From: Bryoerythrophyllum caledonicum
Lineage: Eukaryota > Streptophyta > Bryopsida > Pottiales > Pottiaceae
Length of the DNA stretch: 64,000 bases
Assembly (NCBI GenBank): GCA_963971425.1
Contig: OZ020515.1
Span: 36,718,371-36,782,370 of the forward strand
Direction: 5' to 3'
Shown: positions 19,923-63,740 of the stretch, piece after piece
How positions within the stretch are numbered: the first letter of the stretch is position 1
How the letters are laid out: each line of letters opens with the position of its first letter
Notes under the pieces: model-generated
What the model saw: the letters and a program-made list of their open reading frames with translations, nothing else
Database searches by the model: none
What the model was told of the DNA's origin: nothing
Position numbers and translations under genes: made by a program

Positions 19923-20854
19923 TTAACCCCTAAAGGACCAAACGTCCCCCCGGGGTCATTTTGGATTTTGGGCATGTACCTACAATTCGAAAAAAAATCC
20001 TTTTTGATTCAACTTTTTTTTCAAGATAGGATCTGATAAGAGCTTCATGGAGATATTTTTTTATTTTTTTTTGGATTTGTGGTTTGAAAGTTAGTACCAC
20101 TTAAAGCCAAAAGTGGGACTTCGGGCACCTCCAAAAATTTTGACAAAAGTTTCTATTGACATTGAGATTTTTCACACATGTAAAGAATATTTCCTTTTCC
20201 GGAAATTTTCAAAAAAAATTCTTGTCTTTAGTGTAAAAAGGCATTTTATTCCAAGTCAAACATTTTCACACATTTTCGGGCAACGGGGGAAAAAAACTTC
20301 ATCTTTTCTACATAAAACCTAGAGATCTTCATATTTTTCACTTTTTTTTTTTTCAACTACAATATATGGTAAAAACCTTCTTATTGGCCGTTTGGATTAT
20401 CATTTGAATACATACGTAGCTCACCAAAAAATAAAACGTGAAATGGCAATTTTTGAACCTCCACTCCTTGCACACTTGTTTTGAATATGCTATACCCCTT
20501 TGTTACCTCTAAAAATTGGTGTGTAGGGTAACAACATCATGCTTAAGACAATGGTAAAAGATTTAGACCTTGTGCAATGCAAAAATTTGATACAAAATGA
20601 AGTCAAAGTCAGCTGATCTACTCAACGCAGGGATGAAAATGATCCATTGTTTTGACTTTAAACACTAAATCTATCAATCCGTGCGGTGGATTGCAACCAA
20701 AATTTGATGGCATGTTTATATGGAAGTCTATTTTAAGATCTTACGGTTGAAAATCCAAAATTCACTTTAAAATGTGATTTTCATGTCTCATTTTGACAGT
20801 GGCAGTTTTGGACTGGTTTTAGAGCGAATTAGGTCGTGGTCCTTTAGGGGTTAA
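19923..20854. mobile_element. Complete piggyBac-like non-autonomous element (932 bp)
   Basis: TTAA at both ends (19923-19926 and 20851-20854), with 14-bp perfect inverted ends CCCCTAAAGGACCA. It has no open frame of note and is AT-rich inside. The length is almost the same as that of the nested element at 55675-56607 (933 bp), and internal blocks are shared (GTCTTTAGTGTAAA, CCTCCACTCCTTGCACAC). It therefore looks like a defined non-autonomous family. Confidence 0.8.
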
Positions 20855-21561
20855 CAGGGCTGGAGTTTTTTTTTTCTTCTTGTTCCTCGGAGTTCCAGTT
20901 TGTCTGCAAATTATCAGAACAGAGCCCACGAAACGATCATTGACCAGACTCGGAATCTTGAGCCACACGCCTCGAGCGCTGCGCCGGCGGCGACCATATG
21001 CTAAACCCGGCACCACATTTCATCCCAACAATAATATTATATCCTACCAACCAACAGACATGCTCCACTTCTCCATCATTCCATCATCATTCGTAACCTC
21101 GAGTTGCGTGCAGGAGGGTCAAGCTCTCGAAGGTAACGCTACCGACTTCTAGCATGTCACGAAAAGCACTCCGGTGGTCGATAAGATCAGATCGAGGTAA
21201 ACTTCCGTCTCTCGAGAAAGGTAGTGGCATTAGTACTGAGCTAGCTTTTGACCGGTGTCTAGATAGTGTGTGTGTGTGGGAAAGGTGGACGTGAAAGACG
21301 GCTCCAGGTGATGAATTTGGGATAAGTGTAGAATACGAGATCTAGGTTACTTGGAAAGTGGAGCAAGGAGTCATTTGCGGCACATCGACGCCGTCTTTTT
21401 CTCCGAGGTAGATCATCTTTTGTTTGTGGTTGTCTGGTGCTAGTTCCTGGTTTTGTGTGCAGTTTCGGTGCCCTGCGGCTCTGTTCGGGTAGAGCGTCGA
21501 CCGGGCATCCGCATCCACTTGTACAGATTCGTCGTTGTAGATATTATTTGTTTGTGTTAGA

Positions 21562-23917: not shown

Positions 23918-23944
23918 AGGGTTTAGGGTTTAGGGTTTAGGGTT
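23918..23944 (+). repeat. Interstitial telomere-type repeat (TTTAGGG)
   Basis: Three to four consecutive GTTTAGG units. This is the Arabidopsis-type plant telomere sequence; too short for a chromosome end. Confidence 0.85.
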
Positions 23945-26947: not shown

Positions 26948-27285
26948 TATATATCCTCAGCTCACCACACCAGTTTCTCACTACAAGCAACCTTGTCGCT
27001 CCTCACTCAAAAAGTGTCGCCCTTCACTCAACATAGTGCAAGTTTGAACCTTGTTCATTTATTTAAAGAATTTTTTAGCAAGATCCTATTGACTAGTAAA
27101 GTAGTACACAGTCCCTCTAAAATCCACAATTTCCACCACCTATCTACATTGGATGTTGTGCAAATTTTCCCCAATGTTAAGATCAGGTTAAATCCAATTT
27201 TGTACGATAGACACTAAAATTTAACATTCCATTTCCATGAGAAATCAATGAAAATAATCCATGTAATTTTGGGAAAAGTCCTTGG

Positions 27286-29372
27286 TTAACCCTTAAATGA
27301 TAAAGTCCCAAGGTTGGCTTTTGCAAATCTTGGGCACGTTCCCACAATTGCAATTTATATTTGCAATTGTTGAAATTTTGTACAAAGATGCAAGAAAACA
27401 AGAGGTACATGGGAATGTAATTCTTGTTCTCATTGAACCTATGGACAAAAGATTATGCCACCCTAATGAAAAACCTCTCAAGTAGGGGCATGTCAGGGAA
27501 CTCCAAAAACTTTTGCTAGGACACTCTTTAAGATATGAGACTTCCAATACTAGCATTGAGTAATATTATTTCCTTTCATATTGTAGAAAACAAAATCTTG
27601 TCTTTAGTGTAAAATAGCATATCAATCCAAGTCAAACATTTTCACACATTGTCATACATTGTCAAGCAAAGTACCAAGGAAACTTCTTTTCTACATAAAA
27701 TCTAGAGATCCTCAGATTTTTTATTTTTACTTTTTCCACAAAAATATGTGGTGTACACCTTATTGACCATTCAAATGATTGTTCTAGAACATATTACCCT
27801 ACGCTATGGTCAGTTTCGTACATAATTAATTCAAAATGGGGACTTGTCTAAAATTTTGGAAATTTCAAGAGATTTGGCTAGGCGATACCTATGTAATACC
27901 AAGGTGATACCCGTTCAAGATCTAGGTGATACTCATGCAATACCTATGTGATATCCATTGTGTCGAATCAATGTGACAGAAAAAAATAAATGCTTCGGCA
28001 GTTGCCTGCCGAAACTGACCGTAGCGTACGGTACGTGAACAAAGAAATATTACATGAATTGGCAATTTTTAAACCTCCACTCCTTGCACATATGTTTTTA
28101 CTAAGCTACACCCATTTGTTACCTCTAAAAATTAGTGTACCATACAAGGAACTAATATCATGCATAGCATGATGGTATAAAATTAAGACCTAGTGTAGTG
28201 CAAAAATTGACACCATTTGAAGTCAAAGTCTATTAACCCCAAGAGGACCAAAGTCCCCTCAGGGGACATTTTGAGTTTGGGTAAGGTACCACGTTCTCAA
28301 TTCTAGGCATTATTTACTGAGATTTTTTACTGAATGGACAACTTTTGATTAGCTTTGCGTCGACACAAATTTCATAGAATTTCGACTTATGGTTCAAAAG
28401 TTACAATTTATTTTCACTTACATATACAAATAGTGCAACAGCTTAGTGTGACATATCACAAATACTATCACTAAACTTTAATAACTTCTAAATTCAATAG
28501 AAATTCTATTTTTTTTTCCATTTAAAATAAATAAATGCCGTCTTAGAAAGGAAATTGAGGTCTTTGCATCTACTGTACGGATTTGTGAATTTCAAAAATT
28601 TGAGAAGGATATGATATATGCATAATATAAAGTGTACTGTTGATTCTCAGCACATAGTTGCATTGTAGGATTGTTTAGAACATCTTCTACACCTCTTCTA
28701 CTTCTAAAATTTGGTGCACATGTGCCTAACATGATCCTTTTCAAGTTAAAATAATAAAATTATGGCCCGTAGTGCAAAAAGTTGCCATTGAAGGTGGTCG
28801 AAGTTTGTTGAAGGTGTTTAGTATGACCTCAAAAAGAGATTATGTTTCACTTCAAAGGCTAATATCTTTCAATCCATGCGGTCAAACTTACCAAAATTTT
28901 CACTACACACTTTCATACAACTCTAGTACAAGATCCTACGGTTAAATTTTCAGAAAAAACATTTTGTATCATTTCGTGTTGAATGCGCTGAAAATAGCAA
29001 TTTTGGAGTGATTTTGAGGGGAAATTGTCTTGGTCCTTTAGGGCTTAATCCACATAATGTAGGGAAGAAAATGTATTGTTTTCTCTACTCCAAACATTAT
29101 AATCTTTCAATCCATGCGATCAAATTTTATGAATCTATTGTGAAAATACAATCAGCTCCTTTCACAATAGCCTGGTAAATATAGAATTTTCTATTTCGAG
29201 CGGTTGTTATAATGAAAAGGGTGGGTAATGCATGTTACATCAAGTGTTGTTGTAAAGAGAGAACTTTTTTTTTAACCCAAGCTACTCCCATAGTGAAATT
29301 GCTCTTGTATAAAATGCTTCTTTAAATGGAGCTGATAGTAGTGAAGTCCTACAGTTAAAACTTAGGGGTTAA
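27286..29372. mobile_element. piggyBac-like element interrupted by a second one
   Basis: Starts TTAACCCTTAAATGATAAAG and ends CTTAGGGGTTAA at about 29372. The interior follows the 19923 element (GTCTTTAGTGTAAAATAG, CACTCCTTGCACATATGTTT). It is split at 28233-29048 by a complete 816-bp element: GAAGTCAAAGTCTA lies before the insertion and a GTAGGGAAGAAAATG-type continuation lies after it. A small insertion with ATCAGCTCC ends lies at about 29148-29346. A GGTGATACC-type minisatellite lies at 27880-27975. Confidence 0.65.
28233..29048. mobile_element. Complete piggyBac-like element nested in another
   Basis: TTAACCCCAAGAGGACCAAA on the left and TTAAGCCCTAAAGGACCAAG on the right (reverse complement), 816 bp. 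TTAA flanks both ends. The right half is the full-length relative of the truncated copy at 17067. Non-coding. Confidence 0.75.
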
Positions 29373-30178
29373 CCCTTTAGCGCCCAGGGATGTTTCTGGA
29401 AAAACCAAGAATTCTGCTGATTTTTTTCTTCGAACCGGAATTGATGGAAATACAATGCCTAATATTAATATCTAACCTTACAAAATTGAACTTAACCCAT
29501 GATCTCAACTTTGGAGAAATTTTGCACAACATCCAACCATCGATGGAATAGATTATAGTGTTTAAAGTTACCATATATTGGTAGTGAAAATTGTGGAATT
29601 TGGAGGGTGTACTACTTTAACTATCAATAGAGTTTTGCAAGAATTTTTTTACTTTGAATTAGAGTGGTTCACAGGTGCACTAGGTTGATAGCTTCGCATT
29701 GACATATTATATGTGAAGAAAATATTTATACCCAATTATTGGTGATTTTTTTTCTTTTTTCTACTTGGTTGTATACAAAAATGTTCCAACCTTATACGAA
29801 TCAAAACAGAAGTTTCGTGTGTGAGGAGAGAGATCAACAATCACAAAACCGTATGAAGAACGTCTTAAAGACCAAGTTCAATAAAAAATTAAGACCAAAA
29901 TCAATGTGCTTTTGTGTGAAATACAACAGAGTATGTCGCATAGTATTCATTGTATTCACTATATTTGAGTGTATTTGGTGTATTTTGTGTTGTATTCCTA
30001 GCTTTTCCAAGAGTTCTATAAATCCAAATCATGATCTGATTGTTGGAGAGTGTTCGTGTAACAAGTGCGCAAATCTGAACCTCATATCTTGAAGCCTAGT
30101 TCCTCATGGATTTCATGCAAATTGAGTTTGAGCACCTCCGGAGTCCCATTTCGGGCTTCCTGGGCGCTAAAGGGTTAA
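29369..30178. mobile_element. 810-bp piggyBac-like element, copy 1
   Basis: TTAA at 29369-29372 and 30175-30178, with a perfect 16-bp inverted end CCCTTTAGCGCCCAGG. Exactly the same length as the inverted copy at 39340-40149, with blocks shared through the length (CATGATTTGGATTTATAGAA on the other strand, and the ACATCCAACSRT region). No transposase frame. Confidence 0.85.
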
Positions 30179-33148: not shown

Positions 33149-33173
33149 CTGCTGCCTGGTGTCCAAAGAAATG

Positions 33174-37299: not shown

Positions 37300-39056
37300 T
37301 GTTCTGAGGTCTAGCTCAGCAGAGCGTGGCGTCCACGGCAGCGGGCGCGTCCGCCATAGCCAGGGTTGAGGGCGAGTGTAGACGAGTTTGGAGCGCGTCT
37401 TCGTGTGAAGACCGCGGGTCTGCGTCAGCTCCACACAAGTCTTCCTCGCGTTTCCTGAGGGTGACCTCGAATCTTAGGGTCTTATGTTAGTAACTTGGTG
37501 ACTTGGCTTGGGAAAGGTCTTGGGAACCACCGGTCAATTTTTTACGGGGAGCTTTAGATTGCATTGGGTAGGGCCTAAGAGCATTGATTCCCGTGCATCT
37601 CACTGGTGTAACACAAGGGAATGTGAGATTTTTGGAAGTCTTTTCACGTGCATAAAAAAAAATCGTCTGGTTTGGCACCATATTCCTACTAGCTTTGCCC
37701 TTTGGGTAGCACTTTCAGGATTATTCTATTCTTCTGTATAAAAAAATTTGTCATGTCTTGCACCAATGTCTTATCGGTTTTTTTCCTTCAAGAAGCACTT
37801 TCAAAAAAACTCTTGCATTTGATTTTTTTGCCAAACAAAGTTATCCTATTTCCTAGTTCGACAAAACTTTTGGAAACTCTTTATTGGTCGAGGATTTTTG
37901 AATCATGAGAATCATCATAGCTTCATAAAAGGTAAACCCTAAACGGCCAAGCATCCACATGTTAAAGATAATTGTAAAATATGTCCTAAAGAGTAACTGT
38001 AGCATATGACTCTTCCATCTTTAGCCCTTAAATGTTGATCAAGAACTGTGTCTACAAGTCGTTGTTGAAATATATAGAGGCTTTGTTGTGGAGGGTTCCT
38101 TGGCCGATGCCAAATGAGAACAATAGAAATTATGATCTTTGCGCTACCATGTTCAATGTCTTCTCCGATGAAGAAGCTAAGGTCGCAATTGCTTGTTTGG
38201 TGGAGCATATAGAAAGAAGAACGCCGGTTCCCGGAGGGAACCGGCGTGAATAAAGTGTCTGTTCGCACCACCACTAAGACCGTGCCCACCAGGCAAGGAG
38301 CATATAGATTGTTTAGGTTGGACCGGGTCTTTGAGTGCATCACTTGATACACCGGGCTCAATTTGCCACGCTAGGAATAGTAATCCGCCAATACATAGTG
38401 CGAAGATGGCGGGATGCTCGTCGGATCACCTTTTTTATTCCTAAAATTGCTCATGTAAACGGAGCCTCCATGCAAGCTCACATATAGGGCAAAATTCAAT
38501 GAATTCATCACTTACAACTATCTTCATCAAAACCAATCAATGATGTTGCTTGAGATTGTCGTTAATAATCACCTCGTCAGAACCATCAAGGAACTCCCGT
38601 GAAAAACATCAGAATGTGGGCTAGAAAGTTTAATCAGCGTCCCCCGTCCACCCTAGCTACTGGAGCCAACCAAAACCCAGAATACGGCTTGTACAGCCCG
38701 GGCTATAGCAAAGTGGCCACCAGTGGCACTTTCTGATGTTTAAGAGTTAATGCCTAAAAGACTATGACTATGTTTTTGAAAAAAGAACTTCAAAACTACC
38801 GTCAAAGTGCCAACACTAAATATTCAAACTTTTAAAATCCCATTTCCACTACTAACTACAAGATCATGTGTATGCTAGTAGAAAATTAAAAATTAAAAAT
38901 TAATATATATATATATATATAATTTTACAGCACAAATTTAAGATAATAGTCTTTAAGACTAATTCAATGGTCTTATAGTATATAAAGATATGGTCACTAC
39001 AATAAATAATAATTAGTGTTAAGATTCAACAATGTTGTTAAACCCAAGCAACTGAC
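37300..39056. other. Intergenic, one stem-loop motif
   Basis: No gene is supported. It contains the stem-loop motif copy at 38221-38280 and a short (TA)n tract at about 38904-38922. Confidence 0.4.
38221..38280 (-). repeat. Stem-loop motif, copy with the strongest hairpin
   Basis: A perfect 12-bp hairpin, ACGCCGGTTCCC (38221-38232) with GGGAACCGGCGT (38236-38247) and a 3-base loop. On the minus strand it directly follows the shared motif ending GAACAGACACTTTATTCACG. Confidence 0.6.
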
Positions 39057-39339
39057 TTAACCCTTTAAGGATGATGCCGGTGAAACAACCTGGGAGAATC
39101 TACGAGTGTGATAGATCATGTAGAACATCACATATACAATGGGTACATTTCATTGCGACTATGCATTACAAACATCACTATAGTTTGTTCATCAGACTTT
39201 GACGCACATTCTCGGTGCTTCCGTTGGAAGCATATGTATCCAGAGAACTTAGCTCAGGCTGTGGATCAAACATAGATGACATGTCGGTCCACCAAATTTG
39301 CAAATACTCCAAAATTGACCACCTATGGGCTTCATGTCC
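39057..39339. mobile_element. Partial TTAA element, interrupted by the 810-bp element
   Basis: Begins TTAACCCTTTAAGGATGATG. The first 190 bp match the elements at 3941 and 61094 (GAGAATCTACGAGTGTGATA, and a CCACCAAATTTGCAAATACT block shared with 63.7 kb). It runs into the TTAA at 39340; I could not confirm its other end beyond 40149. Confidence 0.55.
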
Positions 39340-40149
39340 TTAACCCTTTACCACCTAGGAAGCCCGAAGTGGGACTTTGGAGGTGCCATAACTCAATTTG
39401 CATGAAATCCATGCGGAATGAGGCTTCGAGATACCAGATTCAAATTTGCGCACACATTACGTGAACACTCTCCAACAATCAAATCATGATTTGGATTTAT
39501 AGAACTTTTGGAAAAGCTGGGAATACAACACAAAATACATCAAATACACTAAAATACATTGAATACACTAAATACCATGCCACATACTATCATGTTGTAT
39601 TTCACACATGCACATTGATTTTGGTCTTTAATTATGATTGAACCTTGTCTTTAAGACATTCTTCATTGTTTTGAGATTGTTGATCTCTCTCGTCACATAC
39701 GATACTTTCATTTTGATTTGTATAAGGTTGGACCATTTTTGTATACATTCAAGTAGAAAAAAGCAAAAAAATCACCAGTAATTGTGTATAAATATTTTAT
39801 TCACATATGATATATCAATGCAAAGCTATCAACCTAGCGCACATGTGAACCACTCTAATTCAAAGCAAAAAAAATCTTGCAAAAATCTATTGATGGTTAA
39901 AGTAGTATACCCTCCAAAATCCAATGTTTTCACTACCAATATACGGTAACTTTAAATACTATAATCTATTCCATCAAACCGTTGGATGTTGTGCAAAATT
40001 TTCCCAAAGTCCAAGTCATGGATTAAGTTCAATTTTGTAAGGTAGGATACTTATATTAGGCATTGTGTGTCCATCAAATCCGGTTTAATGAAAAAAATCA
40101 GCAGAGATCTTGGTTTTTCCATAAACATACCTGGGCGGTAAAGGGTTAA
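39340..40149. mobile_element. 810-bp piggyBac-like element, copy 2 (opposite orientation)
   Basis: TTAA at 39340-39343 and 40146-40149; ends CCCTTTACCACCTAGG and CCCTTTACCGCCCAGG. It matches the reverse complement of 29369-30178 and has the identical length of 810 bp. No transposase frame. Confidence 0.85.
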
Positions 40150-41762: not shown

Positions 41763-42159
41763 TTAATCCATAAAGGTCAGTGGGGGACAATATATACGGT
41801 CACGTATTTTATTTTTAACATACAAAACATGTACTAAAATTTAGCAAGACATGCACCTTTGGATTGAAGATTGTTCAACTAACATCTTTTATTTGGAGGT
41901 CATTTCAATATCTGCACCTTATCATGCTCCAATATGACACCGTACATGTAGAATATATGACCATTTTGCAACTTCTCAAGCATGTAGCAAGTGCAATAAT
42001 AATCAAAATTAAAATTTTCACGTGTCATTGAATTGGGCTCAACACAAATACAAACTTTTGTAACTATTATATACATCAATTCTTACACCTTGTATGTCAA
42101 ATACACAAAAAACATCATATTGCAATCCAAATGTGGCTTCTCTAACCTGTAAGGGTTAA
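41763..42159. mobile_element. Small piggyBac-like element
   Basis: TTAATCCATAAAGGTCAG on the left and, inverted, TTAACCCTTACAGGTTAG on the right (14 of 18 match), 397 bp. TTAA flanks both ends. Non-coding. Confidence 0.5.
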
Positions 42160-42400: not shown

Positions 42401-43963
42401 CAGAGTCACTTTAAAAACTGACTCAATGTTATGGACAAGCACTTTCAAAGCCACTTGGTAAAAAAATAATGAGATTTTTAGTGGATGTAGAATACGGATG
42501 AAAAAGAACCTCAAGTTGACTTTGACATGATGTCATGATGACATGATCATTTTCCAGAAGGTTTGAGTGATAGAGAGGAAAGCTTTGAGAGTGTATAGAC
42601 TCAGTTTTTGAGGCCTTCATTGCTACCTTCTTTGGTAATTTGTTTGTTCTTATTTCTTCATGAAACTTGATAATTTTTTCCTGGGTTTGTATTAGATTGT
42701 CTTATACAGTACTTGTGATTGTAGAAGTTGTAACGAAGGATGAAGCCAATTTCTACAGACAAAGAAGAAAATATTGTAGCTTTGGTTGAAAAAGGAAATA
42801 GTAGTAGAAGATTGCAAGAAGCTTGAGTTTATCACAATCTATAGTTAATAGAGTGAGAAAGCGTCACTCTCACAACTTAGAATTGTCTAAAGGAGGTCGT
42901 CCTAAAGTCCTTACAAAAGGGGAGAAGCGGTATGCTTCACGTTCAGTAACTCTTGGAGGTTTAGAAATTGCAACACAGGTTGCAAAAGTGCTCAGAAGAG
43001 AGACAAGTGTAGAAATGTGTGATAATACCTTGAGGAATGTGTTGAGAGAACAAGGACTGCCTTCTTCTAGAAAAATTGAAGAGCCTTTTTTTAAGTGAGA
43101 AGAACATCAAAGCAAGGTTTCAATTTGCTCAATATCACAAAGAATGGATAGTAAGTGATTGGAAGCGGGTGGTATTTAGTGATGAAACCATAATATGTCG
43201 GTTTAGCTCGGATGGAAGAGTTTGGTGTTGGATTGAAGACAAAGAAAACATTCATGTACGTGTTGTCAAACATGATGGAGGGGGCATTATGCTTTGGAGT
43301 TGTTTGACTTCTAAAGGATTAGGGGCATTGCACAATATACAGGGGCGTTTAATTACTAGAGGCTACATTGGGATTTTAGAGCAAGATTTATATACTACAT
43401 TTTGGAATTTGGAGTTCAATGTTGAGGAAGTTATTTTCCAACAGGACAATGCTAGTATTCATTCAACAAAGATTGTTTAAAATTGGTTTGGAAGGCAACC
43501 ATTTTGTGTCTTAGAATGGCCTGCACAGTCCCCTGACCTAAATCCTATTGAAAATGTATGGGCTTTCCTCAAACGGCGATTTGAATTCCTATTCTACTCC
43601 TCCTAATGGTATTCTTCAATTATGGGAGCGAGAGCAAGAAGTTTTCTTTTCTAGTAGTGTGAGAGATTGTATGCTAGCATGCGTGATCAAATTGCAGCTG
43701 TTTTGGCTGCAAAAGGGCGGTGGACAAATTTTAAGCGACTTTTCAGGTGTAGTGCAAAAACCAAGTCTATGTATATACTTTACTTCAAGATCTTTCTTTA
43801 CTTTGTTGTAATTGAAATCATCTTTTTACCATTATGGTGTTATATAGTACTTTATCCTCTACAATTTTGCTTTCTATGGCTTTTGATTTTGATCATCCGT
43901 GTTTGTGGCATTGTCATTTGAAGTTGTGTGTTTCTTTCATAGACTCAATTTTTGGAGTCACTG
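42401..43963 (+). mobile_element. Tc1-like transposon, degenerate
   Basis: About 1.56 kb, the usual Tc1 length. Imperfect inverted ends: AGTCACTTTAAAAACTGA on the left and AGTGACTCCAAAAATTGA on the right (complement). It encloses the broken transposase at 42740-43750. Confidence 0.75.
42740..43750 (+). pseudogene. Tc1-like (DD34E) transposase, broken
   Basis: The order of a full Tc1 transposase is readable across several frame changes: start MKPISTDKEENIVALVEK, an HTH segment (SQSIVNRVRKR), a GRPKVL hook between the two DNA-binding halves, then the catalytic core with Asp 1 in FSDET, Asp 2 in QQDNASIHS and Glu in [11 protein letters not shown]. There are 34 residues between the second Asp and the Glu if the in-frame TAA at 43478-43480 is counted as one position. 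Lesions: frame change at about 42815, another near 43075, the TAA, and a further change near 43600 before the usual RDQIAAVLAAKG tail. Not functional. Confidence 0.85.
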
Positions 43964-48750: not shown

Positions 48751-48988
48751 GTCGAGCGTTGCGCCAAGCGTGAGGCTTGGAAGGGTGGGAGAGGGTAGGG
48801 ACAAAATTGGCCCCTATTTTTATGTTGGAGGTGGGCCCTATCTGATCCGAGGGGGTCTCCATAGAAATTTGGAGCCGCAGGCCCCAATTTTGGCCAAAAG
48901 AATTCCAAAAAAAGTCTCTAGAATCCTAAAACGGGCACGACCAGAGAAATGGACCCACCCGAGGCTGAGGTTTGGTGCAACGCTTGAC
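48751..48988. mobile_element. Long-arm MITE family L, divergent copy
   Basis: Ends GTCGAGCGTTGCGCCAAGCG and, inverted, GTCAAGCGTTGCACCAAACC; 238 bp. The interior (GGCCCCTATTTTTATGTTGG, AGGCCCCAATTTTGGCC) resembles copies at 50707, 50980 and 53526, but the arms are unrelated to theirs. Confidence 0.55.
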
Positions 48989-49455: not shown

Positions 49456-50706
49456 AGTGGGATATAGGAACGGAAAAAATTGGAGCATGAGAAAATTTCA
49501 TGCTTTCCTATTCTGTATTAAATGAAATGCATGAGGAGTAATGGTAGATAATAATCTATAGCCCTACTCAATGTAAGTTAAAGCTTCTTGACGTTGATCA
49601 TATCTCTATAGGGAAGAAGAAAACCATAATGCACTCTTCAAATGCAAGTACCTTTTGATCCGCGCCGTTAACGTTTACAAAATGTACTGAGTGTCTTTTT
49701 GTAGTAGTTAACTTGAAGATCCTACGATTGAAAACAGTTAGAGTGTTGTTTCAATAAGTCTTACATCTTCTCATCTTAGAGAGGCAATTTTGGGTGGTTC
49801 TGGTGTAACACAGTCTCAGTCCATTAGGGGTAAAGAGAAAAAACTGAAATGACTTCATCCATGGACTCAATTGCTATTAATACCCTATGCCATGGTCGCT
49901 TTTTGTACATAAATAATTCAAAATGGAGAGTTGTCCTAAATTATGGAAAATATACATTTTTGCTTGGTGATAAATAAAATTTAGAGTGTGCTTTAGTGAT
50001 GTAATTAGCAATAAATGTCAAGCCAAGCTATGGGGGATGGAGAAACCTTACACCTCATCTTGTTGTTAATCACATAGTTGCAAAGTAATTGCTCATATGT
50101 ACCTTTTTTGAAATAACACTAAATGTACACATGAAATTTTATTTTAATTCCAAATTATTTCTAAAGTTGACAAATAGTCTTAAATTAACATTTAGTGTTA
50201 GCCACATTTAGCCCTTCATTGACATTAAGTGTTTGCATTTGTATATATTGTTGCCAACACTAAATGTCATAGTTTGTGTACTAAAGTTGAGGCAGAAAAC
50301 ATTTGTTGATGACAGACTGTAATTGCAACCATAATTGCAGAGAAATCTACAAAGTTTGTACACTTTTACTGGGTAATGTGGAATTTTGAAACTTCTCATG
50401 CAACTGGTTATTGAAGTGGTGCTTGAACCAAAATCCAAATTCTGGAGAAGTTGGGGATATGAGCAATGGACACATCTTCCCACAAAACCTGGCCCCAAGT
50501 TGAGAGAAGACTATTCAACTACTGTAGAAAGCATTTTGTTTTGGGGTCATGTGAAAAGTGTTGTTTTGGGATGTGTTACAAGTTGCAAAATGTTGACCAT
50601 GTTGCAATTGCACCTTTCCTGCACCTTTGAAGGACTATGCTTTCCAAGTAGTTCAATGGAGTCTATTGTGAACCTGCCATGAAATGGGTCAAATGGGGCC
50701 CAGGGC
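49456..50706. other. Intergenic with fragments of the TTAA families
   Basis: A block at 49876-49975 (GTACATAAATAATTCAAAAT) matches 27.8 kb, and ATTAGGGGTAAAG near 49822 looks like a worn right end of the CCCCTAAA family. No gene. Confidence 0.45.
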
Positions 50707-50966
50707 AAATTGACCCCTGGTTGGGAGTTACCCGAGGTGGGTCCCGTCTTCATTGCATGGGGTCATTTTTCTAGCCCTCTTATTTTGGGGGGTCCGGAGG
50801 CTTTTTTTGGTTTTTTGGGGGGACAAATTTGGGATCAGCGGCCATCGTTCACCCTCAAGGACCCTCCCTTGCTACAATCAGGGCCCCGTCCCAAAACAAA
50901 ATAGGGGCTAGGTTTGGCCCCACCACCTCATGGTCCTCTCGGGTAACTCCCAACGAGGGGTCAATT
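50707..50966. mobile_element. Long-arm MITE family L, copy with TTGGGAGTT arms
   Basis: Left arm AATTGACCCCTGGTTGGGAG and right arm (complement) AATTGACCCCTCGTTGGGAG; both continue TTACCCGAG. Interior as in the copies at 50980 and 53526 (TTGCATGGGGTCATTTTTCT). About 260 bp. Confidence 0.7.
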
Positions 50967-50979
50967 CACCCTAGGCGTG

Positions 50980-51244
50980 GACAGGACGTCCCCAAAGCTC
51001 GGACTTACCCGAGGTGGGCCCCGTCTTAATTGCATGGGCTCATTTTTCTGACCCTCCCATTTTGGGGGGGTCAGAGGCTATTTCTGGATTTTTTTTACAA
51101 AATTGGAGCCTACAGCCCCAATTTGGTCTATAGGTCCCTCACTTGCCAAATTTAGGGACCCATTCAAAAACAAAATAGGGGCTAGGTTTTGGCCCCACCA
51201 CCTCTTCCCCCACCCGGTAAGTCCGAGCGTGGGGATGTCCTGTC
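50980..51244. mobile_element. Long-arm MITE family L, copy with GCTCGGACTT arms
   Basis: Left arm GACAGGACGTCCCCAAAGCT then CGGACTTACC; right arm (complement) GACAGGACATCCCCACGCTC then GGACTTACC. 265 bp. Confidence 0.7.
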
Positions 51245-51496
51245 AAATCGGGCGTCAAATGGGTTTCCAATGCTTGTCTGTAAATGTGAAAATACTTTTG
51301 TACTCCTGAGGTATGGCGAAGGAAGTTCAGAAGGATTGTTGTGCTAAATTCGCCTAGAAATCGACAATGTGTGATTCAAATGTGTTGGCTGTGTTCTATG
51401 TCCTGGTTTTAGTCTAACCTACAAGTAACTTCAGACTCACTTCAAGTTGATGTAATCGTTGTTCATTGTTGTTTGATTTACACAGAACACTCGTGA

Positions 51497-53177: not shown

Positions 53178-53525
53178 TAAGGGCATGTTTTCATGCTACA
53201 CTTGACCCATCAGAAATGGTGAGGTTGGGCCACTTCCATGAGAACAGAACATTTCCAACCCATTCTCAGATTATCTATATTTATTTCCTACATACTATTC
53301 TCTCCCATGTTAGATTCAGTTAAGGTGTCAAATAATCTTAAAAGGTGTTCAACATTCCCTGACTAGATGGAAGGGACCTACATGGAAGGGACGTCGTGGC
53401 TTTCTATCCTTGCAGTCACTGTCGGGTCCGGTCGGGAAGCTACAATGAATTTCAAGAGTTGGATGTAGTATGGAGACTCGCTCTAATTGGGAGAAAACGT
53501 ACATAGGGAGAGCATTGTTGGTGCG

Positions 53526-53794
53526 GACAGGATATCCCCCACGCTCGGACTTACCCGAGGTGGGCCCCCATCTTAATTGCATGGGGTCATTTTTCTGGCC
53601 CTCTTATTTTGGGGGGTCCAAAGGACTTTTTTGGATTTTTTTTTGACAAATTTGGATCCTACGGCCTTTGTTAACCCTAGGGGTTCTTCCCTTGCTATAA
53701 ATAGGTCCCCATCCAAAAACAAAATAGGGGTCGGGTTTGGCCCCACCACCTTGTGGCCCCACGTGGTAAGTCCGAGTGTGGGGGATATCGTGTC
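53526..53794. mobile_element. Long-arm MITE family L, copy 3
   Basis: Left arm GACAGGATATCCCCCACGCT then CGGACTTACC; right arm (complement) GACACGATATCCCCCACACT then CGGACTTACC. Nearly perfect 30-bp arms. 269 bp; interior as at 50980. Confidence 0.75.
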
Positions 53795-53925
53795 AAATCG
53801 AGCATTGTTGAGGTATAATTCCGTGAGATCATAACAGTGTCTTGTTGAGGATGCACACACAATCAATGCGTGAGAAGGGAGGTGATGGGCCACAATTTGG
53901 AGAAGTTAGAGAATATATATAAAGA

Positions 53926-54785: not shown

Positions 54786-56743
54786 TTAACCCCTAAATTT
54801 CCAAGAGTCCCCTTGGAGGATTCTTGAAGGTTTGGGCAAGTTCCTATGGTGTTTGTTAATAAAAATATTCATTGTATTTTTGTTATTGTACACTATCTAA
54901 AGCTTTTTGACAGTTAATACCTACCATAAGTTTTACCTCTGATATGTTATAATGCCGCTTCTGGGCATTATCAAAAGCTTTTGACAATATAGTTTTTTTC
55001 TAAATTGGAGATTTAATGCAACAGTTATGCCATCTTAAAACAATACTTCATGAGAGCGGACATCTCACGCAACTCCAAAAACTTTTGCTATGACACTCTA
55101 TTGAATGTGAGATTTTCAATACTAGCAACTAATATTATTTCATCTCTTATGGTCAAAAATCTTGTCTTTAGTGACAAATAGCATGTTAGTCTAAGTCAAA
55201 AGAATTCAAACATTGCTCACATTGTCGGGCAAGGTACCAAAATTCTTCTTCTTTTGTACATAAGAACTAGAGATCTCAACTTTTTTTCATTTTTATTTTT
55301 CCTACTACAAGATATAGAGTAAACTCTCTTATTGACCATTAAATGGATCATCATTCTAAAACATGTTTAGTTCACATCAAAAATTAACGTGAATTAGCAA
55401 TTTAAGAACCTCCGTTCCTGGCACAATAGATTTGAATATGCTACGCCCCTTCTCTATTTCTAAAAATTGGTGTGCAATGAACTAATATCATGCTTAACAT
55501 GATGGTATCAAATTTAGACTTTGTGTAGTGCAAAACTTTGACACCAAGTGAGGTCAAAGTTTGTTGATCTCCTCAACACATGGAAAAAAATGAACGGTTT
55601 TCTCATCTTCAAACACTATAATCATTCAATCCGTGTACTTGCCAAAAGTGTATGGAATTTTGTGAGTTTGTTACTTAATCCCTAAGAAGCCATTTAACCC
55701 TTGGAGGCCGTTTCTCATTTTCGGCAGGTACCTAAAATCCAAAAAATATATTTTCTTTTTTGAAATATTTGTACTAGATTGTCCCTGATAAGATCTTTGT
55801 AGAATAATTTTTACAAAAACTTTGATTCATAATATGAAAGTTATTAGCCTTCAAAGTCAAATTTGGGACTCTGGGCAGCTCCAAAACTTTAGCTAGAAGC
55901 TTCTATTGGCATTGAGATTTTTCATACATATACTAGAGAATATTACCTTCTTTGGAGATGTCAAAAAAATTCTTGGCTTTAGTGTAAAGAATTTTTTTAA
56001 CTCAAATCAAACATTTTCACACATCATCGAGTTGGGTACCAAACAAGCTTCTTCTTTCCTACATAAAACCTAGAGATCTTCATATTTTTCACTATTTATT
56101 TTTTTGACAACAATATGTGGTGAAAACCTTCTTATGGACCATTTGGGTTATTATTTGAAAACATATTAAGTTCACAATGAAATAAAATGTGAATTGGCAA
56201 TTTTTGAACCTCCACTCCTTGCACACTTGTTTTGAATATTCTACACCCCTTCACTACCTCTAAAAACTGGTGGACAAGGAATCAACATCATGCTTAACAC
56301 AATGATAAAGGATTTAGACCTTGTGTAGTGCAAAAATTTGACACCAAGCGAAGTCAAAGCCTGTTGATTCACTCAACGCAAGGAAGAAAATGAACCATTT
56401 TCTTGACTTCAGATGCTATAATCTTCATATCCGTGCAGTGGATTGTAGCCCAAAACAATGTGGTAAGTTTGTATAGTAGTCCTTTATAACATCTTAGGAT
56501 TAAAAGTCCAAAATTGTACTGTATAGTTGGATTTTTTTGCCACTTGTTGATAGTGGTAGTTTTGTAATGTTTCTTGTGGGAAAATGCCTTGGGCTCTAAG
56601 GGGTTAATGAGTCTTAATTGAGATCTTACGATTAGAACTGAAAGTAAAAGTTTTTGTTTCCTTCTTTATTTATTGGACTAAAATCAACAATTTTGATGTG
56701 TTTTTTTTAATGGGAAATTGTCACAAAAATTTAAGGGTTATAA
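54786..56743. mobile_element. piggyBac-like element interrupted by a nested one
   Basis: Starts TTAACCCCTAAATTTCCAAG; the right end is worn (AATTTAAGGGTTATAA). The body is split at 55675-56607. Joining the flanks recreates the sequence order seen in the short relative at 57535-57775 (TTAATGAGTCTTAATTGAGA region). Confidence 0.7.
55675..56607. mobile_element. Nested 933-bp piggyBac-like element
   Basis: TTAA at both ends; left TTAATCCCTAAGAAGCC, right inverted TTAACCCCTTAGAGCCCAAG. Length within one base of the 19923-20854 element, with shared interior (CTCCACTCCTTGCACACTTG, TCTTTAGTGTAAA). Non-coding. Confidence 0.8.
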
Positions 56744-57206
56744 ACAAAAATCAACAGATGACTTTTAGATGTCAAACCTAATATTTCTAGTTTCATAAAA
56801 ATATATTTCTGAAAGGTCACAAACTTGCTATGGTAGCATGGTACATTACAATACAAGTATTTGGAATTACACTACGTTCAAAAAGAGAAGAGTACCAACA
56901 GCCTTTTTGTGATTTAACCCGTAAATGGCCATAAGTTGTTACTTCAAGCTTCATTACGTAGTGGTTTAAAAAATGCTTTAAATATTTAAATCACTTCTAC
57001 AGAAAATAGATAGATATTCTTCAAAAAATGGATGAATGAGAATTATCATTCATTATGCATGAGAATTAGATAAGAGATTATGCATGAAAGATTTGTTCAT
57101 AGTCCAATATATGAATGCTTGGACACATTGGGATCAAGAGTCTACTGAAGGTAACGATGCTTTTGAAGCCACCAAGACCTAGATAGCACACAATTCATTA
57201 AACACG

Positions 57207-57534
57207 AAGAGCATCTCCACTGGGGCATTGGGCCCCCACAAATTGCCCAGAATAGCCTGGACTTAATGAAAAGTGTGTCCACCACAACGGGGGGTTGGAG
57301 AAACGGCCCGCCAAGCTGGCGACTTGAATGCTCCCATACGCCACATTTGCAAGAATTGTGAGGCCGACGAAATAATTCCCCGGGCGCATGGGCTACTCAC
57401 GTGGTGCCATGTGCCAGCGTGTCACTGACCCTTGACTTCCAACCACTCTCACTAAGCTAACGTGATTACAAGGAACGTCTGCTACCGGGAACGTATATTG
57501 CCATGTAATTGGGAACGAGTTTGCCGTGAAGAGA
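57207..57534. mobile_element. Partial GAGCATCTCCAC MITE
   Basis: Starts GAGCATCTCCACTGGGGCAT as in the copy at 49064. No right end is found before the TTAA element at 57535. Confidence 0.4.
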
Positions 57535-57775
57535 TTAACCCCTAAATTACCAAGCCATTCTCAAACCAATAACACTTCAAAATTGCTAATTTCGATGCAA
57601 TGAATAAGGAAGAAAACCAAAACTTTTATTTCTATTTTTAAACATAAGATCTCAATTAAGACTTATTCAGTAACATACTCACAAAATATCACAAACTTTG
57701 ACCACACGGATTGAAAGATTATAGTGTTTGAAGTACAAAAAAGGGTTCATTTTCTTCACTTAATTTAGGGGTTAA
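57535..57775. mobile_element. Short deletion derivative of the 54786 TTAA element
   Basis: TTAACCCCTAAATTACCAAG and, inverted, TTAACCCCTAAATTAAGTGA; 241 bp. The interior is the reverse complement of the right part of the 54786 element (TCTCAATTAAGACTTATTCA). TTAA flanks both ends. Confidence 0.75.
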
Positions 57776-57784
57776 GTGAAGTTA

Positions 57785-58337: not shown

Positions 58338-59390
58338 TGATTGATGAAATTAAGTTGAACGGATGCAAAGTTTCAAATCCAGCTGGCATACTCCCAAAGT
58401 GTTCCACGTGGAGGGCTCTGAGGCATGCTGACTTTGCAACTTGGAGAAAGAACAATCCATCAGTGCCACGTCGGATGTGTAGTAGTTGTTCATTGGGAAA
58501 TGCGAAAGATTATTCTCGGAGGATTGCTGTTCATTTTCTCGGTGTTGAACCGATCAAGAGAAGCGGCGCCACAGAAGTGCAAGGATTTATGCAATGGATG
58601 AGAGACAAGTTGTGGAAGAAGAATGACTTGAAGGACTTCGTCCAATCAGCAGGAATAAAGTGCCTATTCCTTCCTCGTTCCATTACACAGATTTTAGAAT
58701 TTAGTGTTACGCTACATTTAGTATTATGACCACACAAGTCCAATTGTGTATCTCTTAGAAATTAGTGTAAAGATCGTGAAGGTCATCTTGTCTAGCTTGA
58801 TACATTAGGGGCATGCACATGGAGGCAAACGCAACCTTCATCCGCACCCCAACGTCAGGTAGTGGGCCCCACTTGGCATTGGCCATGCGTGAAAATCACC
58901 ATCTGTAATTTTACAGGGAACACATTGGAAACTCCACGGGGAATGCAGGTTGAACTCTATAGGAACGTAATGGAATTCATTGGGAACAACAAGGAACACG
59001 CTAGGAACGCGATGGGCACTCACATGGTTAAAAAGATGGAGTAAACCAACGGTTTGATTACTTAATTCCACAGTCCATGAGTTTGAGCACATCAAGGCTG
59101 GACAAGCCAAACTCGGACCCTATGCTGCCTGGTTTGGGTCCAAACGCAACCCATTTGCACTCATGTGCGTGACCTTCTTATTGCTGAATCTTTGGGAACA
59201 TATCAATGGCCTCATAGTGGGACCCTTCCTCGGCATACCCTTTCACCATGGCCAACCATGACATCACATCTCAATACGGTAGACCCACGCCGAACAATTA
59301 GCTAGCTTTTAGCAACTCTCTCCACACTTGGAATATAAGGGCCTTACCACACGGGAGGGGGAGGAAGTTTCACAACTTCCTCCAATATGG
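58338..59390. other. Intergenic, nothing recognised
   Basis: A 179-codon frame at 58190-58729 overlaps the MITE end and has no recognisable domain. No gene is supported. Confidence 0.4.
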
Positions 59391-59617
59391 CACTACACTA
59401 AAGATGACATTTAGTGTAGTGCCCAGTAAATGACTTGTAAATGCTATAGATTTTTACTATGAATGAATATTTTTACCAACTTTGTTTTTAGTGATCCTTT
59501 TATTTGAATACTATAGATAGTTGTTCTCTTGGTAAAAATTGGCATGAAGAGTAAAAACTTATAGCATTTACAAGTCATTTACTAGGCACTGCACTAAATG
59601 TCATCTTTAGTGTAGTG
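59391..59617. mobile_element. Foldback MITE family D, copy 1
   Basis: Starts CACTACACTAAAGATGACAT and ends with its complement. The arms extend over 60 bp (AGTAAATGACTTGTAAATGC on both sides). Each end is also a hairpin by itself (ACTACACTAAA with TTTAGTGTAGT). 227 bp. Confidence 0.75.
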
Positions 59618-60100
59618 GCACAAAAAATATTCTTTTCCTCCTTACATTGTGGACTTCCAGGCACTAGTGCCTAGTAGTTTTCAACGGCAATTATTGTGCC
59701 AAGTCATTGCCATGTAGATTCCAAAGCAACATCCAATGCAAATTCCAAAGCTACAAAGTTGCTCCATGTCATTCTTGCCACTCCCCCTACTTCCTCTCAT
59801 GTGGCAACCACTTGCTAATTTGAACCAATGTGAGTCATCCAACTCACTGCCTTTCCTCTCGTGTGGTTTGGCCCTAAAGGTGGTGAGTGCTTTGACAACC
59901 CATAGGTTCTTGTCGTAGCTTGATTGAATGATCCATCCATGCACCTTCTTACCCTGCTCCAAAGCGGTTGGACTCGTGCAAACCTTGGAGAATAGTAGGA
60001 GTAGTAACTCCGGTGTCCAGAGGAAGACAACGTGACTAGGTTTTTTTGTTTGTTCCCTTCACTATGTCGTTGTCCAAAGGACAAGGATAAGTGGAAGATA

Positions 60101-60324
60101 ACTACACTAAATATCACTTTTAGTATAGTGCCCAGTAAATGACTTGTAAATGCAATAAGTTTTTACTCTTGATGCCAATTTTTACCAAGAGTACAACTCT
60201 CTACAGTGTTCAAATGAAAGGATCATTATAAACATAGTTGGTAAAAATATTCACTTGCAGTAAAAACTTATAGCATTTACAAGTCATTTACTGGGCGCTA
60301 CACTAAAAGTGAGATTCAGTGTAT
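60101..60324. mobile_element. Foldback MITE family D, copy 2 (inverted)
   Basis: ACTACACTAAATATCACTTT to an end near CAGTGTATT. Same long arms as copy 1; interior in the opposite orientation (GAAAGGATCATTATAAACAT against ATGATCCTTTTATTTGAA-type sequence). 224 bp. Confidence 0.7.
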
Positions 60325-60576
60325 TGCTCTCATGGCCTTGGAAAACACTTGTTCGCTGAAAACCCCTCCCCCTGAGCCTATGTTCATGTAAATTGTGGAT
60401 ATTTTAATCTCACGAAGCTTATTCAAATCTACATTTTTGTCGGCATTTATCTTGAATTTGAAGTGATCTCAAGCCTCTATACAGATTATCATATCTACTC
60501 AGAGCCACAATTAATTAAATTTTTTACTATGATATATCATGGACGTCATTTAGATACCATGAAATGAAATCTATGA

Positions 60577-60677
60577 GTTATTTATGAGAGTTGTAAGTTA
60601 TTTATGAGAGTTGTAGGTTATTTATGAGAGTTGTAGGTTATTTATGAGAGCTGTAAGTTATTTATGAGATTTGTAAG
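60577..60677. repeat. 20-bp minisatellite, five units
   Basis: Five near-identical units of TTTATGAGAGTTGTAGGTTA. Confidence 0.9.
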
Positions 60678-61746
60678 CACCTGATATACTCGTTGGTTAC
60701 TTAGACCATCTTTCTATTGGCGACCATAGGAACTACATAAAGACCTTGACTAAGAGCATAAACATTTTTCATTAAAATATTGATTTTAATGAAAAAAATT
60801 ATCTTGATTTTTTTTCTACAAACTTAGTTCCTCGACATAATTCGGTCTTCTATGGTGTTTAGCCTTCGGATGAGTGCAGAAGGCTCTAATAAAGACTCAC
60901 TTACATTTTATTAAGAGAAATCAGTTTTCTTTCAAAACATGAATTAATAAATCTTTAATGAGCAGAAATGAAAAACCTAGAAATGAAAAACCTAGAAAGT
61001 GATATCAAATAACCTAGAAATAGAAACCTCTTTTTATAAGAGTATATAATTCAATTTTCATTTTGTATACTCGTAGGTTTCAAATGATTGTTGTTAACCC
61101 TTTAAGGCCTTTGAGGGTGACCAGGGGTGGGATAATCTACAACTTGTGTAATAGATCATGCAAAATATCATCTATATGAGTGGGTACATTTCATCAAATT
61201 ATTAATTGATTGTCTTGGAAATCACCATAGTTCACCTGTCAAACTCCGGTTTACATTCTCACTGCATTTGTTGGAAGCTCACAGATCCTTGGAACTTAAC
61301 TTAGGTTGCGGATCAAATAGAGATGATGCATTCCTTAAAAGCGCACATATACTTGGAACTTAATCCTTAAAGGATGGAGCCTATGATTGTAGAATCAACC
61401 CCAATTTCCATTCTTTTGTGTGCTCTAATTTTTCATTATATATAAGTGGATTTTGTTTTTCACATATGAGATCACATGTTTTGTTCATGTCACAAAAATC
61501 ACAATTTTTTGGGGGAAAATTTGAATCTATTGTGATTTTTGAAGAAAAAGTGAATAAAACTCATATTACACTCAAAGCATGCTAAATTATTTGAAAATTT
61601 CATTAAAGGTGTACAGTCCCCTCTACAAAGTAAGGTAACCGCTTGCTGTTTCTCACACACAGGAAGAGACCAACAAGAAAACTTGACTAATGCTACCTCG
61701 TGTACACATCAAATATAGATTTTTTTTCCATAAATAGTTAGCTTTA

Positions 61747-62978
61747 TACATGTAGAAGCTTCTTGCTAAAAAAATACAAATCTTTTGTAATCATTTCTAA
61801 CATGAAAATTGGATTGATCAACAACTACTACTACCACTATATGCTACTTCCTTTGGCATCAATAACAACTTGTATCCGTTTTGGAATGCTTGCAACTAAC
61901 TTGTCTAACATCTCCATTGGTATGCTCTCCCAAGCTGCTTACACTGCATTCCACATTTGCTCTTTGTTTTTTGGTCTTTTCATCTTCTGGACCCTATCTT
62001 TACAAATCATCCACATGCTTTCTAGAGGGTTTAAGTCAGGAGAATTTGGAGGCCAATTGAGCATCTTTAAACCAATATCTTTGATGCAATTTTTTGTCAC
62101 TGTGGCTGTATGTGTTGGTGCACCATCCAACATAAATACTAATTCTTCATGGTTAGCATGGTGGAAGAAGTAGGGCAATAATCCTTGCTCACATACAATC
62201 TCTACAAAGTCCATAGCAGTGCGTTGTCTAAAAAGAATTAAAATAAAAAACACTTACTAGTTGCAGTAAAAGCACCCCAAACCATGATTGACATCCTTCC
62301 AAACTTGAATGTTGGTGCTAAACATTGTGAATGAAATTTTTGTGAAGTAGTCCGCCATACTCGAGTTTGACGTGAATAAGCACCAATCTCAAATGACGAC
62401 TCATCACTCCAAATAACCAACTTCCATTGTTCCACCGTCCAATGTTTATGCTCTTTCGCAAAGGCTAACCTCAATTTCTTGTGTCTCTCATTCAAGAAAG
62501 GTTTCTTCTTGGCAATTCGGTTGCCAAATCCAAGGTCATGCACTTCTTTTCATATGGTATTCGTACTCACAGAAATGGGCAAGCTACTAGCAAGTTCAGC
62601 AAGAGGTATTCTACAATCCTTGACAATCTCATATTTGAGAACTCGTCGATCAATCTCTTGCAGCTGTTTTGGACATCCAGATCTTTTTGCTATTTGTACT
62701 GAACCTCGCTCTTGGTATCTCTTGAGGACTAGTTCAGAAATGTTTTTATTTATTTATTTTCCAACTACATTTGCATTTCACTCAAAGATGCTCCAGCTGT
62801 GTTCATTCCTACAATAAAACTCTGCTCTTCTACTGATAAGAAGTAACTTGTCATGGTACTAGTGAGGGAGAGTGAAAATGAACTTGTTGAATGACAGACA
62901 CAACAATTCTATGAGCTACTAAACCAACAACTACAGCATCACAAAAAATCAATTTTTCGTAGCAAAACCTTCTAGGTA
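61747..62978 (-). mobile_element. Tc1-like transposon nested in a TTAA element
   Basis: TA at both ends (61747-61748 and 62977-62978). Inverted ends: CATGTAGAAGCTTCTTGCTA on the left and CCTAGAAGGTTTTGCTACGA on the right (complement). 1.23 kb, encloses the transposase remnant. Confidence 0.75.
61841..62854 (-). pseudogene. Tc1-like (DD34E) transposase, broken
   Basis: Starts at 62854 with MTSYFLSVEEQSFIVG, then a Tc-type HTH region (KRYQERGSVQIAKRSGCPK), RRVLKYEIVKDCR, and the catalytic core: Asp in WSDESSFE, Asp in FMLDGAPTHT and Glu in SPDLNPLESMW, with 34 residues between the last two. The tail IPKRIQVVIDAKG is also present. Lesions: frame change near 62750, TGA at 62550-62552 replacing the Trp-type position before KEVHDLGFG, a frame change near 62245, and a stop at about 61939. 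Different from the 42.7-kb element. Confidence 0.88.
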
Positions 62979-63740
62979 TGAGTGACCTTCTCAACTCACA
63001 GATCATCACAACTACTCAACTTCATGACATTGCAATCAAAATTGAGCGACTTAGGTACTCACAAAGCTCCCTATTCTCAAAAACATCTGCATTGCTTCAA
63101 AAAGCTTCACATACCACATGGTACTCAAATTGACTCAAATTGGCTGAATCAACTTCCTAATTTGGATGTTCAATCAAATCAACTGTGTAACACATGTGAG
63201 CTGACCCATGGGGAGTTACCTTACTTTGTGGAGGGGATTGTACATAGTAGGAAAAAAACTTGTGGTGTAAATGAAAATTCCATGTTTCTCTAAAATAAAA
63301 AAATTGGTTAGAGGCCCAAAGTTTGAATTGCAATAACTTATCCAATTTTCAATATTTTTCAATTTGGAATGGAAATTAGACTTCATAAATCTCATTTCAT
63401 TAGTTGGACTCAAAATAAAAATATCACTTTAATGACTCAAATTTGGATTTAGAGCTACAACGAGAAGTTCCTAAAATACACTTTATGGAGATCCATGTCA
63501 CAAACTTTTTCTTCTTTGATTATAACATGATTACCTTAATGAGGCAAATTTCATCAGCACCTAATACTTACACATTCAATGAACTCTCCACAAAAAGGAT
63601 TGGATGAGAAACAATCGTTTACAACAATAATCATCCTCAGAATGTCATCCGAGATGCCATTTTTTGGCTGCTCAGGCGTTGAAGGGTTAACTTAGGCTGC
63701 GGACCAACAAGTTTGCAAATTACTCCAAAATTGACCACCT

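Follow-up and report, generated by a model that had tools for sequence, protein, structure and literature searches.

Probable non-autonomous piggyBac transposons in a moss genome that encodes piggyBac-type transposases elsewhere

The window analysed here is a stretch of 64,000 nucleotides of Bryoerythrophyllum caledonicum (contig OZ020515.1, C2 in our numbering, positions 36718371-36782370, in an assembly of 437,360,962 bases and 894 contigs). It contains at least 12 non-autonomous copies bounded by TTAA with CCC-type inverted ends, several of them nested; the original prediction, made from the letters of the window, had claimed at least 11. We are highly confident that these are non-autonomous piggyBac transposons of the moss, comprising forms like miniature inverted-repeat transposable elements (MITEs) as well as longer, internally deleted ones. 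This reading is carried by the anatomy of the elements, the precision of TTAA at their ends, their empty counterparts, the kinship of the 932-bp family to a transposase-bearing element and the recent spread of the 932-bp element. The observation behind the original prediction was confirmed, and its interpretation is supported. In the proposed mechanism, DDD transposases of the piggyBac type, whose genes lie in elements of about 5 to 7.6 kb elsewhere in the genome, would recognise short ends (CCCCTAAA.../CCCTTWA...), excise the element and reintegrate it at a TTAA, which would then stand on both sides. The same transposases presumably act in trans on the window elements.

TTAA precision and terminal motifs

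A whole-genome search with the 14-bp and 16-bp ends had been proposed as a check, and TTAA was kept at most exact copies. The 14-bp end occurred 6476 times, with TTAA immediately outside in 5530 cases (85%), and the 16-bp end CCCTTTAGCGCCCAGG occurred 301 times, with TTAA immediately outside in 266 (88%). The reversed 14-bp pattern, which served as a control, was found twice, in neither case with TTAA; the controls of the 16-bp end gave 0. With up to two mismatches allowed, TTAA preceded 30 of the 37 ends that the window and loci L009-L038 contain, and five of the other seven were one base off. Precise TTAA duplication, as expected of the piggyBac superfamily, was thus observed. Short inverted ends starting with CCC, likewise expected of that superfamily, were present in the window elements and in the transposase elements described below.

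Within the window, TTAACCCTTTA matched 13 times with at most one mismatch (1.7 expected), and CCCCTAAAGGACCA six times with at most two (0.36 expected). Inverted pairing of 14-mers at TTAA sites (at least 11/14) gave 10 pairs, among them the 932-, 816- and 241-bp elements and both 810-bp elements. In a control with all 256 4-mers (12/14, up to 1.5 kb), TTAA ranked first with 4 of 20 pairs and AATT second with 3. Three of the four TTAA pairs are elements listed below, while the fourth (56614-57659) connects the interiors of two copies. Taken alone, this control is weak because of the small margin over AATT and the one false TTAA pair. The better control is the count of CCC/GGG on the element side, which was seen at 29 of 279 TTAA sites in the window; each of five further 4-mers made of A and T only (256 to 496 occurrences each) had 6 to 9.

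Elements of the window and their nesting

The predicted length classes proved to be real copies (810 bp, two copies; 816, 932, 933, 241, 288 and 397 bp). The population had been placed at 19923..63690; the elements within this span were confirmed, and its start was set too late, as copies also lie upstream (3941-4228, 17067-17582). Self-comparison of the window added copies that the TTAA pairing filter had missed, namely the 933-bp copy (55675-56607), a truncated 816-type copy (17067-17582), an interrupted 932-type copy (27286), a split one (54787) and families C and D. The 397-bp element, missed at 11/14 pairing, was recovered at 10/14. The features are as follows (TIR, terminal inverted repeat).

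3941..4228, plus strand: 288-bp TTAA element with CCCTT ends, family C; TTAA at both ends, weak inverted match; in self-comparison 3941-4038 is 74% identical to 61094-61194, and 3921-4072 is 69% identical to 39037-39187
17067..17582, minus strand: truncated 816-family copy with an intact TTAACCCCTAAAGGACCA end (exact 14-mer); 90.7% over 516 bp to 29048-28533
19387..19921, unstranded: family D copy adjoining the 932-bp element, without the Tc1-like insertion of 61614-63240; in self-comparison 73% to 63517-63241 and 72% to 61615-61376
19923..20854, plus strand: 932-bp element with TTAA and TIR CCCCTAAAGGACCA (14/14); both ends match the L025 transposase element
27028..27259, minus strand: remnant of an 810-type element; 66-67% to 29688-29444 and 39940-40099
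27286..28236, resuming at about 29045-29147, plus strand: 932-type element with left end TTAACCCTTAAATG; 63-78% to 932-type copies; host of the 816-bp insertion
28233..29048, plus strand: 816-bp element at TTAA inside the 932-type element; TIR 11/14; 88% to L018:7152-7965
29369..30178, plus strand: 810-bp element with TIR CCCTTTAGCGCCCA (14/14), from TTAA pairing
39057..39339, plus strand: family C copy with an intact left end; 66% to 61094-61326
39340..40149, minus strand: second 810-bp copy; TIR 12/14; 87.7% to the first
41763..42159, unstranded: 397-bp TTAA element; TIR 10/14; empty counterpart of the L021 insertion, at 41913-41916
54787..56742, plus strand: 932/948-type element split by the 933-bp element; right boundary approximate, by eye
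55675..56607, plus strand: 933-bp element at TTAA; 75% to 19923-20854; both ends match the L025 transposase element
57535..57775, minus strand: 241-bp element with TIR CCCCTAAATTA (11/14); bases 1-238 are 77% identical to L014:2059-2297
61094..61359, plus strand: family C copy split by 61360-63690; 66% to 39057-39279
61360..63690, unstranded: family D element with TTAA ends inside family C; homologous to 19387-19921; contains the Tc1-like element; left boundary set by hand
61614..63240, minus strand: Tc1-like element with TA duplication and a broken transposase, inside 61360-63690; ends set by hand

A remnant at 49610-49834 was excluded from this list, its 61% identity to the 241-bp element being too weak.

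Removal of inserted elements restored continuous host sequence. Without the 816-bp element, its host is continuous with uninterrupted 932-type copies; without the 933-bp element, the element at 54787 is continuous, with the 241-bp element as the empty state; and without 61360-63690, family C is continuous. Insertions that bear a transposase gave the same picture. L017:3473-8414 is inserted in a 932-type copy, and the window copy retains TTAA at 55035-55038 as the empty target. L021:1503-6504 is inserted in a copy of the 397-bp element of the window, where TTAA stands on both sides of the filled site and TGCA at the empty one. The Tc1-like element provides an internal contrast to the TTAA elements: it lies in family D with a TA duplication as judged against the uninterrupted copy 19387-19921, and it matches DDE_3 (8.4e-14) and HTH_Tnp_Tc3_2 (1.7e-7). 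Hence a three-level nest is observed at this place, the Tc1-like element lying in the TTAA element 61360-63690, which itself lies in family C.

Transposase-bearing elements in the same genome

As predicted, no piggyBac transposase was found in the window: a profile built from 17 transposases of the same genome detected no transposase remnant in its six frames at E up to 10, with a positive control of 8e-202. In the genome as a whole, at least 120 matches to the DDE_Tnp_1_7 domain (PF13843) were obtained, all above the curated cut-off (best 6e-81), and among those listed none lies in the window. This count is a lower bound, since 116 of 305 first-look candidates were scored; in a few cases one gene accounts for several matches. 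By hand count, 47 of the 120 matched stretches are free of stops.

Twenty transposase loci of 9.9 kb each were taken for inspection by a TIR search that required TTAA. Clear TTAA/TIR elements, in which at least 13 of the 16 end bases pair, were found in L013 (4933 bp, 16), L017 (4942 bp, 14), L025 (7557 bp, 16), L028 (5393 bp, 15) and L027 (5549 bp, 13), the status "clear" being our reading of the pairing. In all five the DDE_Tnp_1_7 transposase sits inside a CCC-ended TTAA element; the window's own elements are without it. The clear elements begin CCCCTAAA, CCCCTCAA or CCCTTAAA.

L025 has an uninterrupted frame of 1059 residues (DDE_Tnp_1_7, 9.1e-74), and L013 has an open frame of 480 residues with another open frame upstream. 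When compared with structures in the Protein Data Bank, the L013 domain matched piggyBac (6x67, 1.6e-27) and piggyBat (9c0f, 9.7e-24). The three catalytic aspartates are invariant in 17 of 17 aligned domains and are aligned with those of piggyBac in the L013 match. These 17 domains come from 17 of the 20 loci, L012, L017 and L020 being excluded as near-copies of others. On visual inspection, the frames of L013 and L025 have a C-terminal tail rich in Cys and His, in which none of the Pfam zinc-finger models gave a score.

The transposases are diverse. In a 13-member alignment, 12 others are 34-78% identical to L025, and the tree of the 17 transposases has several well-supported groups. L013, L024 and L026 cluster in it and have ends CCCTTAAA, CCCTTTAT or CCCTTAAT, in a handful of elements of which some are weakly paired; the ends of L025 and L027, again a handful of elements, are CCCCTAAA. 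An open frame of 474 residues was also noticed with near-equal scores at several transposase places (C2:9960665, C10:18467576, C3:19096604, C4:30447112 and others). These places, of which L027 is the first, suggest one transposase lineage that has recently spread. A search for relatives on viral contigs gave 21 pattern matches, of which 0 were confirmed.

Link between the window elements and the transposase elements

The ends of the 932-bp element match both ends of the L025 element from base one (E 4e-22 and 4e-46; about 200 and 325 bp, 66-71% identity), as do those of the 933-bp element (E 2e-19 and 5e-41). Of the 14 terminal bases, 12 are alike between L025 and the 932 family. The L025 termini were checked because another locus, L041, shows that two short copies can imitate a long element. 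At its two termini L025 carries the outer left and the outer right part of a single 932-bp element, correctly oriented, and neither terminus has a closing end within 1 kb; the two stretches are therefore not two whole short copies. Thus the 932/933 elements look like internal deletion derivatives. As the identity is just 66-71%, L025 is a relative of the 932 family and not its immediate donor. As to the other families, L014:2059-2297, which forms one end of a weakly paired transposase element, is 77% identical to the 241-bp element. One end of the 816-bp element matches L022 and the other L025/L014; L014 and L022 are both weakly paired loci.

The proposed search for a DDE_Tnp_1_7 element with the same ends was answered in part: TTAA/CCC ends of like kind accompany the domain, and no identical 14-mer or 16-mer was found at both ends. 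In the same way, the expected autonomous source elsewhere has its counterpart in the transposase-bearing elements of this genome, though the exact donors of the window families did not turn up among those examined.

Weighing of the evidence

Several observations weigh against reading the window elements as piggyBac derivatives. No transposase element with the exact ends of the window families at both termini was found among the loci examined, and the 810 family has just its terminal 29 bp in common with L013. Two candidates for such an element were rejected. A 6483-bp pair of exact 932-type ends (L041) resolves into one element of 944 bp and another of 950 bp, with no transposase match, which also shows that paired ends do not always delimit a single element; a 5722-bp pair of exact 810-type ends has no transposase match in its middle 2501 bp. 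Among the 20 transposase loci, eight with CCC starts pair at just 11-12/16 (L009, L010, L014, L020, L021, L022, L024 and L026). The weak pairing of L021 is backed by its empty counterpart; in L009, L010 and L020 the right end belongs to a 932-type copy, and the pair may not bound the transposase. The other seven loci lack a convincing pair around the transposase, with none in L011, L012, L015, L016, L019 and L023 and an A/T-rich one only in L018. Under the strict filter, ATAT gave more pairs in the 20 loci than TTAA (9 and 6 of 39), and ten random 5-kb loci gave no TTAA pair, though 3 of the 10 contain family sequence. TTAA is unchanged in just one of the five empty counterparts, that of L017, while the remaining four are one or two bases off (TTGA or CTGA, TGAA, TTAG, TGCA). 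The target itself may have changed in these, because the empty counterparts are paralogous copies.

Kolobok and Sola3, each with a transposase type of its own, also use TTAA. The elements might belong to one of these superfamilies and share the genome with piggyBac by coincidence, which would agree with a window that has no transposase match, with the tie of only about 29 terminal bp between the 810 family and a transposase element, and with ties over at most about 58 bp for families C and D and the 288-bp element (the 397-bp element lies outside that comparison). However, the 932/933 family has 200-325 bp at both ends in common with a piggyBac-transposase element, the starts of the clear piggyBac elements of this genome (CCCCTAAA, CCCCTCAA or CCCTTAAA) are of the window's kind, and beetle piggyBac ends mostly begin CCCT or CCCTTT in the part of the source available (PMC12732532). 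We regard this explanation as very improbable. It is slightly less probable still that the copies are ancient and owe their numbers to segmental or tandem duplication rather than to transposition. The window copies are indeed often only 60-77% alike and nested, and 810-type ends form a series with 840-bp spacing on C1; but empty counterparts exist, and the best-scored full-length 932 copies are 96-100% identical on many contigs with exact boundaries, by which duplication is refuted for the 932 family.

A Tc1/mariner-type origin, with TA as the duplication and the outer T and A there by chance or preference, is the least credible of the three. Tc1-like elements do occur in the window, and collapse of TTAA-element-TTAA yields the same empty site under both readings. 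Yet the full TTAA, not TA only, stands at 5530 of the 6476 exact 14-bp ends, at 266 of the 301 exact 16-bp ends and before 30 of 37 near-match ends, whereas under TA duplication the outer T should approach base composition. The TTAA counts therefore exclude a TA duplication in which the outer base is free, short of an extreme target preference.

Recent spread and abundance

Three more full-length copies of the window's 932-bp element, each 100% identical to it (rounded), lie on C14, on C8 and elsewhere on C2. The 40 best places of this element, itself included, are at least 96% identical over the full length, one of them from base 2, and four lesser matches were also seen. As the best 40 of 6872 first-look candidates were scored, these values describe the top end of the identity range only. 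The best copies lie on many contigs and start and stop at the element boundaries. For the 810-bp element (29369-30178), 39 other best places are 94-97% identical, four of them short by 2 to 14 bases, with the best 40 of 3252 first-look candidates scored. L013 and L017, whose flanks differ, share 97.4% identity across 4931 bp. Within the window and the loci, 932-type copies are mostly 71-79% identical, with two pairs at 88 and 92%, and the two 810-bp copies are 88% identical; these divergent copies look old, but the comparison mixes subfamilies.

From the three other copies at 100% it follows that the 932 family transposed recently. That any copy is active today is an inference. The odds seem about even that the moss has a currently mobile, endogenous, multi-lineage piggyBac system, with open-frame clades, end types of their own and thousands of non-autonomous copies, some of them about 100% identical.

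The first 100 places listed on C1 include 20 pairs of neighbouring plus and minus ends no more than 8 kb apart, and 15 of these pairs are 929-935 bp long. The other five measure 819, 971, 1421, 1993 and 6483 bp, the last being two elements. The share of intact ends with an intact partner on C1 is about 0.34-0.40. As a rough estimate, two-ended elements of the 14-bp-end class might be on the order of 8,000-10,000 genome-wide, a figure that scales the 6476 ends and assumes independent decay of ends and a typical first 5.3 Mb of C1. The window families cover 4.15% of 50 kb taken from 10 places, all of it within 3 of the 10; these places were selected from 40 random draws on 11 large contigs so as to spread across contigs. 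On C1:6093811-6161991, 810-type ends were also noticed on one strand every 840 bases in a short series, and 810-family elements may have turned into tandem repeats there.

Relation to known systems

The superfamily is known and the mechanism would be ordinary cut-and-paste; what is unusual is that in a land plant these elements are so abundant, so diverse and apparently so young. The moss elements have TTAA duplication, short CCC inverted ends and a DDD transposase in common with Trichoplusia ni piggyBac and bat piggyBat. The Cys-rich C-terminal stretch noted on inspection of L013 and L025 may be a further likeness. They differ in the host and in the 1059-residue L025 frame with its long low-complexity N-terminal part. 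Corals reportedly carry piggyBac MITEs, that is, short non-autonomous TTAA elements. Such animal MITEs resemble the moss elements in being short, non-autonomous and TTAA-bounded, whereas the moss elements have a plant host and 810-935 bp classes beside short ones. The clear moss elements measure about 4.9-7.6 kb, compared with 2.1-3.5 kb for beetle piggyBac in the accessible part of PMC12732532.

The original prediction held piggyBac to be rarely described from land plants. No description from mosses was found in the literature searched, partly in excerpt, and this absence is only as good as those searches; the superfamily has, however, already been tabulated for land plants. In the excerpts available, a repeat table of C-fern lists 1230 PiggyBac copies (PMC6890710), PiggyBac is among the superfamilies in all groups studied, land plants included (PMC4438587), and occasional piggyBac is mentioned in plant genomes, with red algae named (PMC12732532). 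The portion available of the Pohlia genome paper gives DNA transposons as 23.68% and does not name piggyBac (PMC9247546). From similar excerpts, the insect piggyBac system is described as untested in Physcomitrella (PMC5505980), and piggyBac was introduced into rice as a foreign tool (PMC4309413). A MITE survey that covers the genomes of 207 plants, including four bryophytes, uses five superfamilies plus Micron (PMC12550479). Its elements resemble those of the moss as short, non-autonomous, inverted-repeat elements of plants; in contrast to the moss elements, none of the classes it names, in the part of that source available, is a TTAA class.

The moss elements suggest that surveys of plant MITEs based on five superfamilies may miss or misfile a large moss class. 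In animals, piggyBac serves widely as a vector that leaves no footprint. An abundant, recently mobile piggyBac in a land plant would raise questions of silencing, horizontal arrival, the shaping of a moderate-size genome by TTAA insertion and a plant-adapted transposase. If true, an active moss system would be the first worked out in a land plant, as far as our searches reach.

Host genome and other repeats

The prediction of a plant-type genome was sound. The window gave protein matches to Nodulin-like/NFD4 and class 3 lipase, and an LTI65-like match under its cut-off, which point to a plant host. A LEAFY gene is present in the genome; by hand count of the alignment, its DNA-binding part is identical to 4bhk at 101 of 107 positions. 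It scores 241 bits against 4bhk, which we take to be Physcomitrium LFY1, and at most 173 bits against other LEAFY structures. Given this closeness to Physcomitrium, the host is therefore a moss. The LEAFY SAM domain has 7 matches in the genome, 6 of them much weaker than the first.

Other repeats were also noticed in the window. At 889-2477 (plus strand) lies a Tc5/pogo-type transposase with HTH_Tnp_Tc5 (2.2e-8) and, in a second frame, DDE_1 (6.2e-10); because of this second frame, the reading frame is interrupted near 1800. In the available part of one source, pogo in land plants is known only as Lemi, from 23 eudicots (PMC7386202), and a moss pogo-type copy may be of interest. At 43046-43480 (plus strand) the sequence has the look of a Tc1-type transposase by eye, with HTH_Tnp_Tc3_2 under its cut-off (0.0045). 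Fold-back (self-inverted) repeats at 59388-59620 and 60096-60330 are 87% alike in opposite orientation and have related copies in L014, L015 and L028. A direct repeat occurs in several copies (50714-51253, 53520-53803 and 48784-48957) and also in L022.

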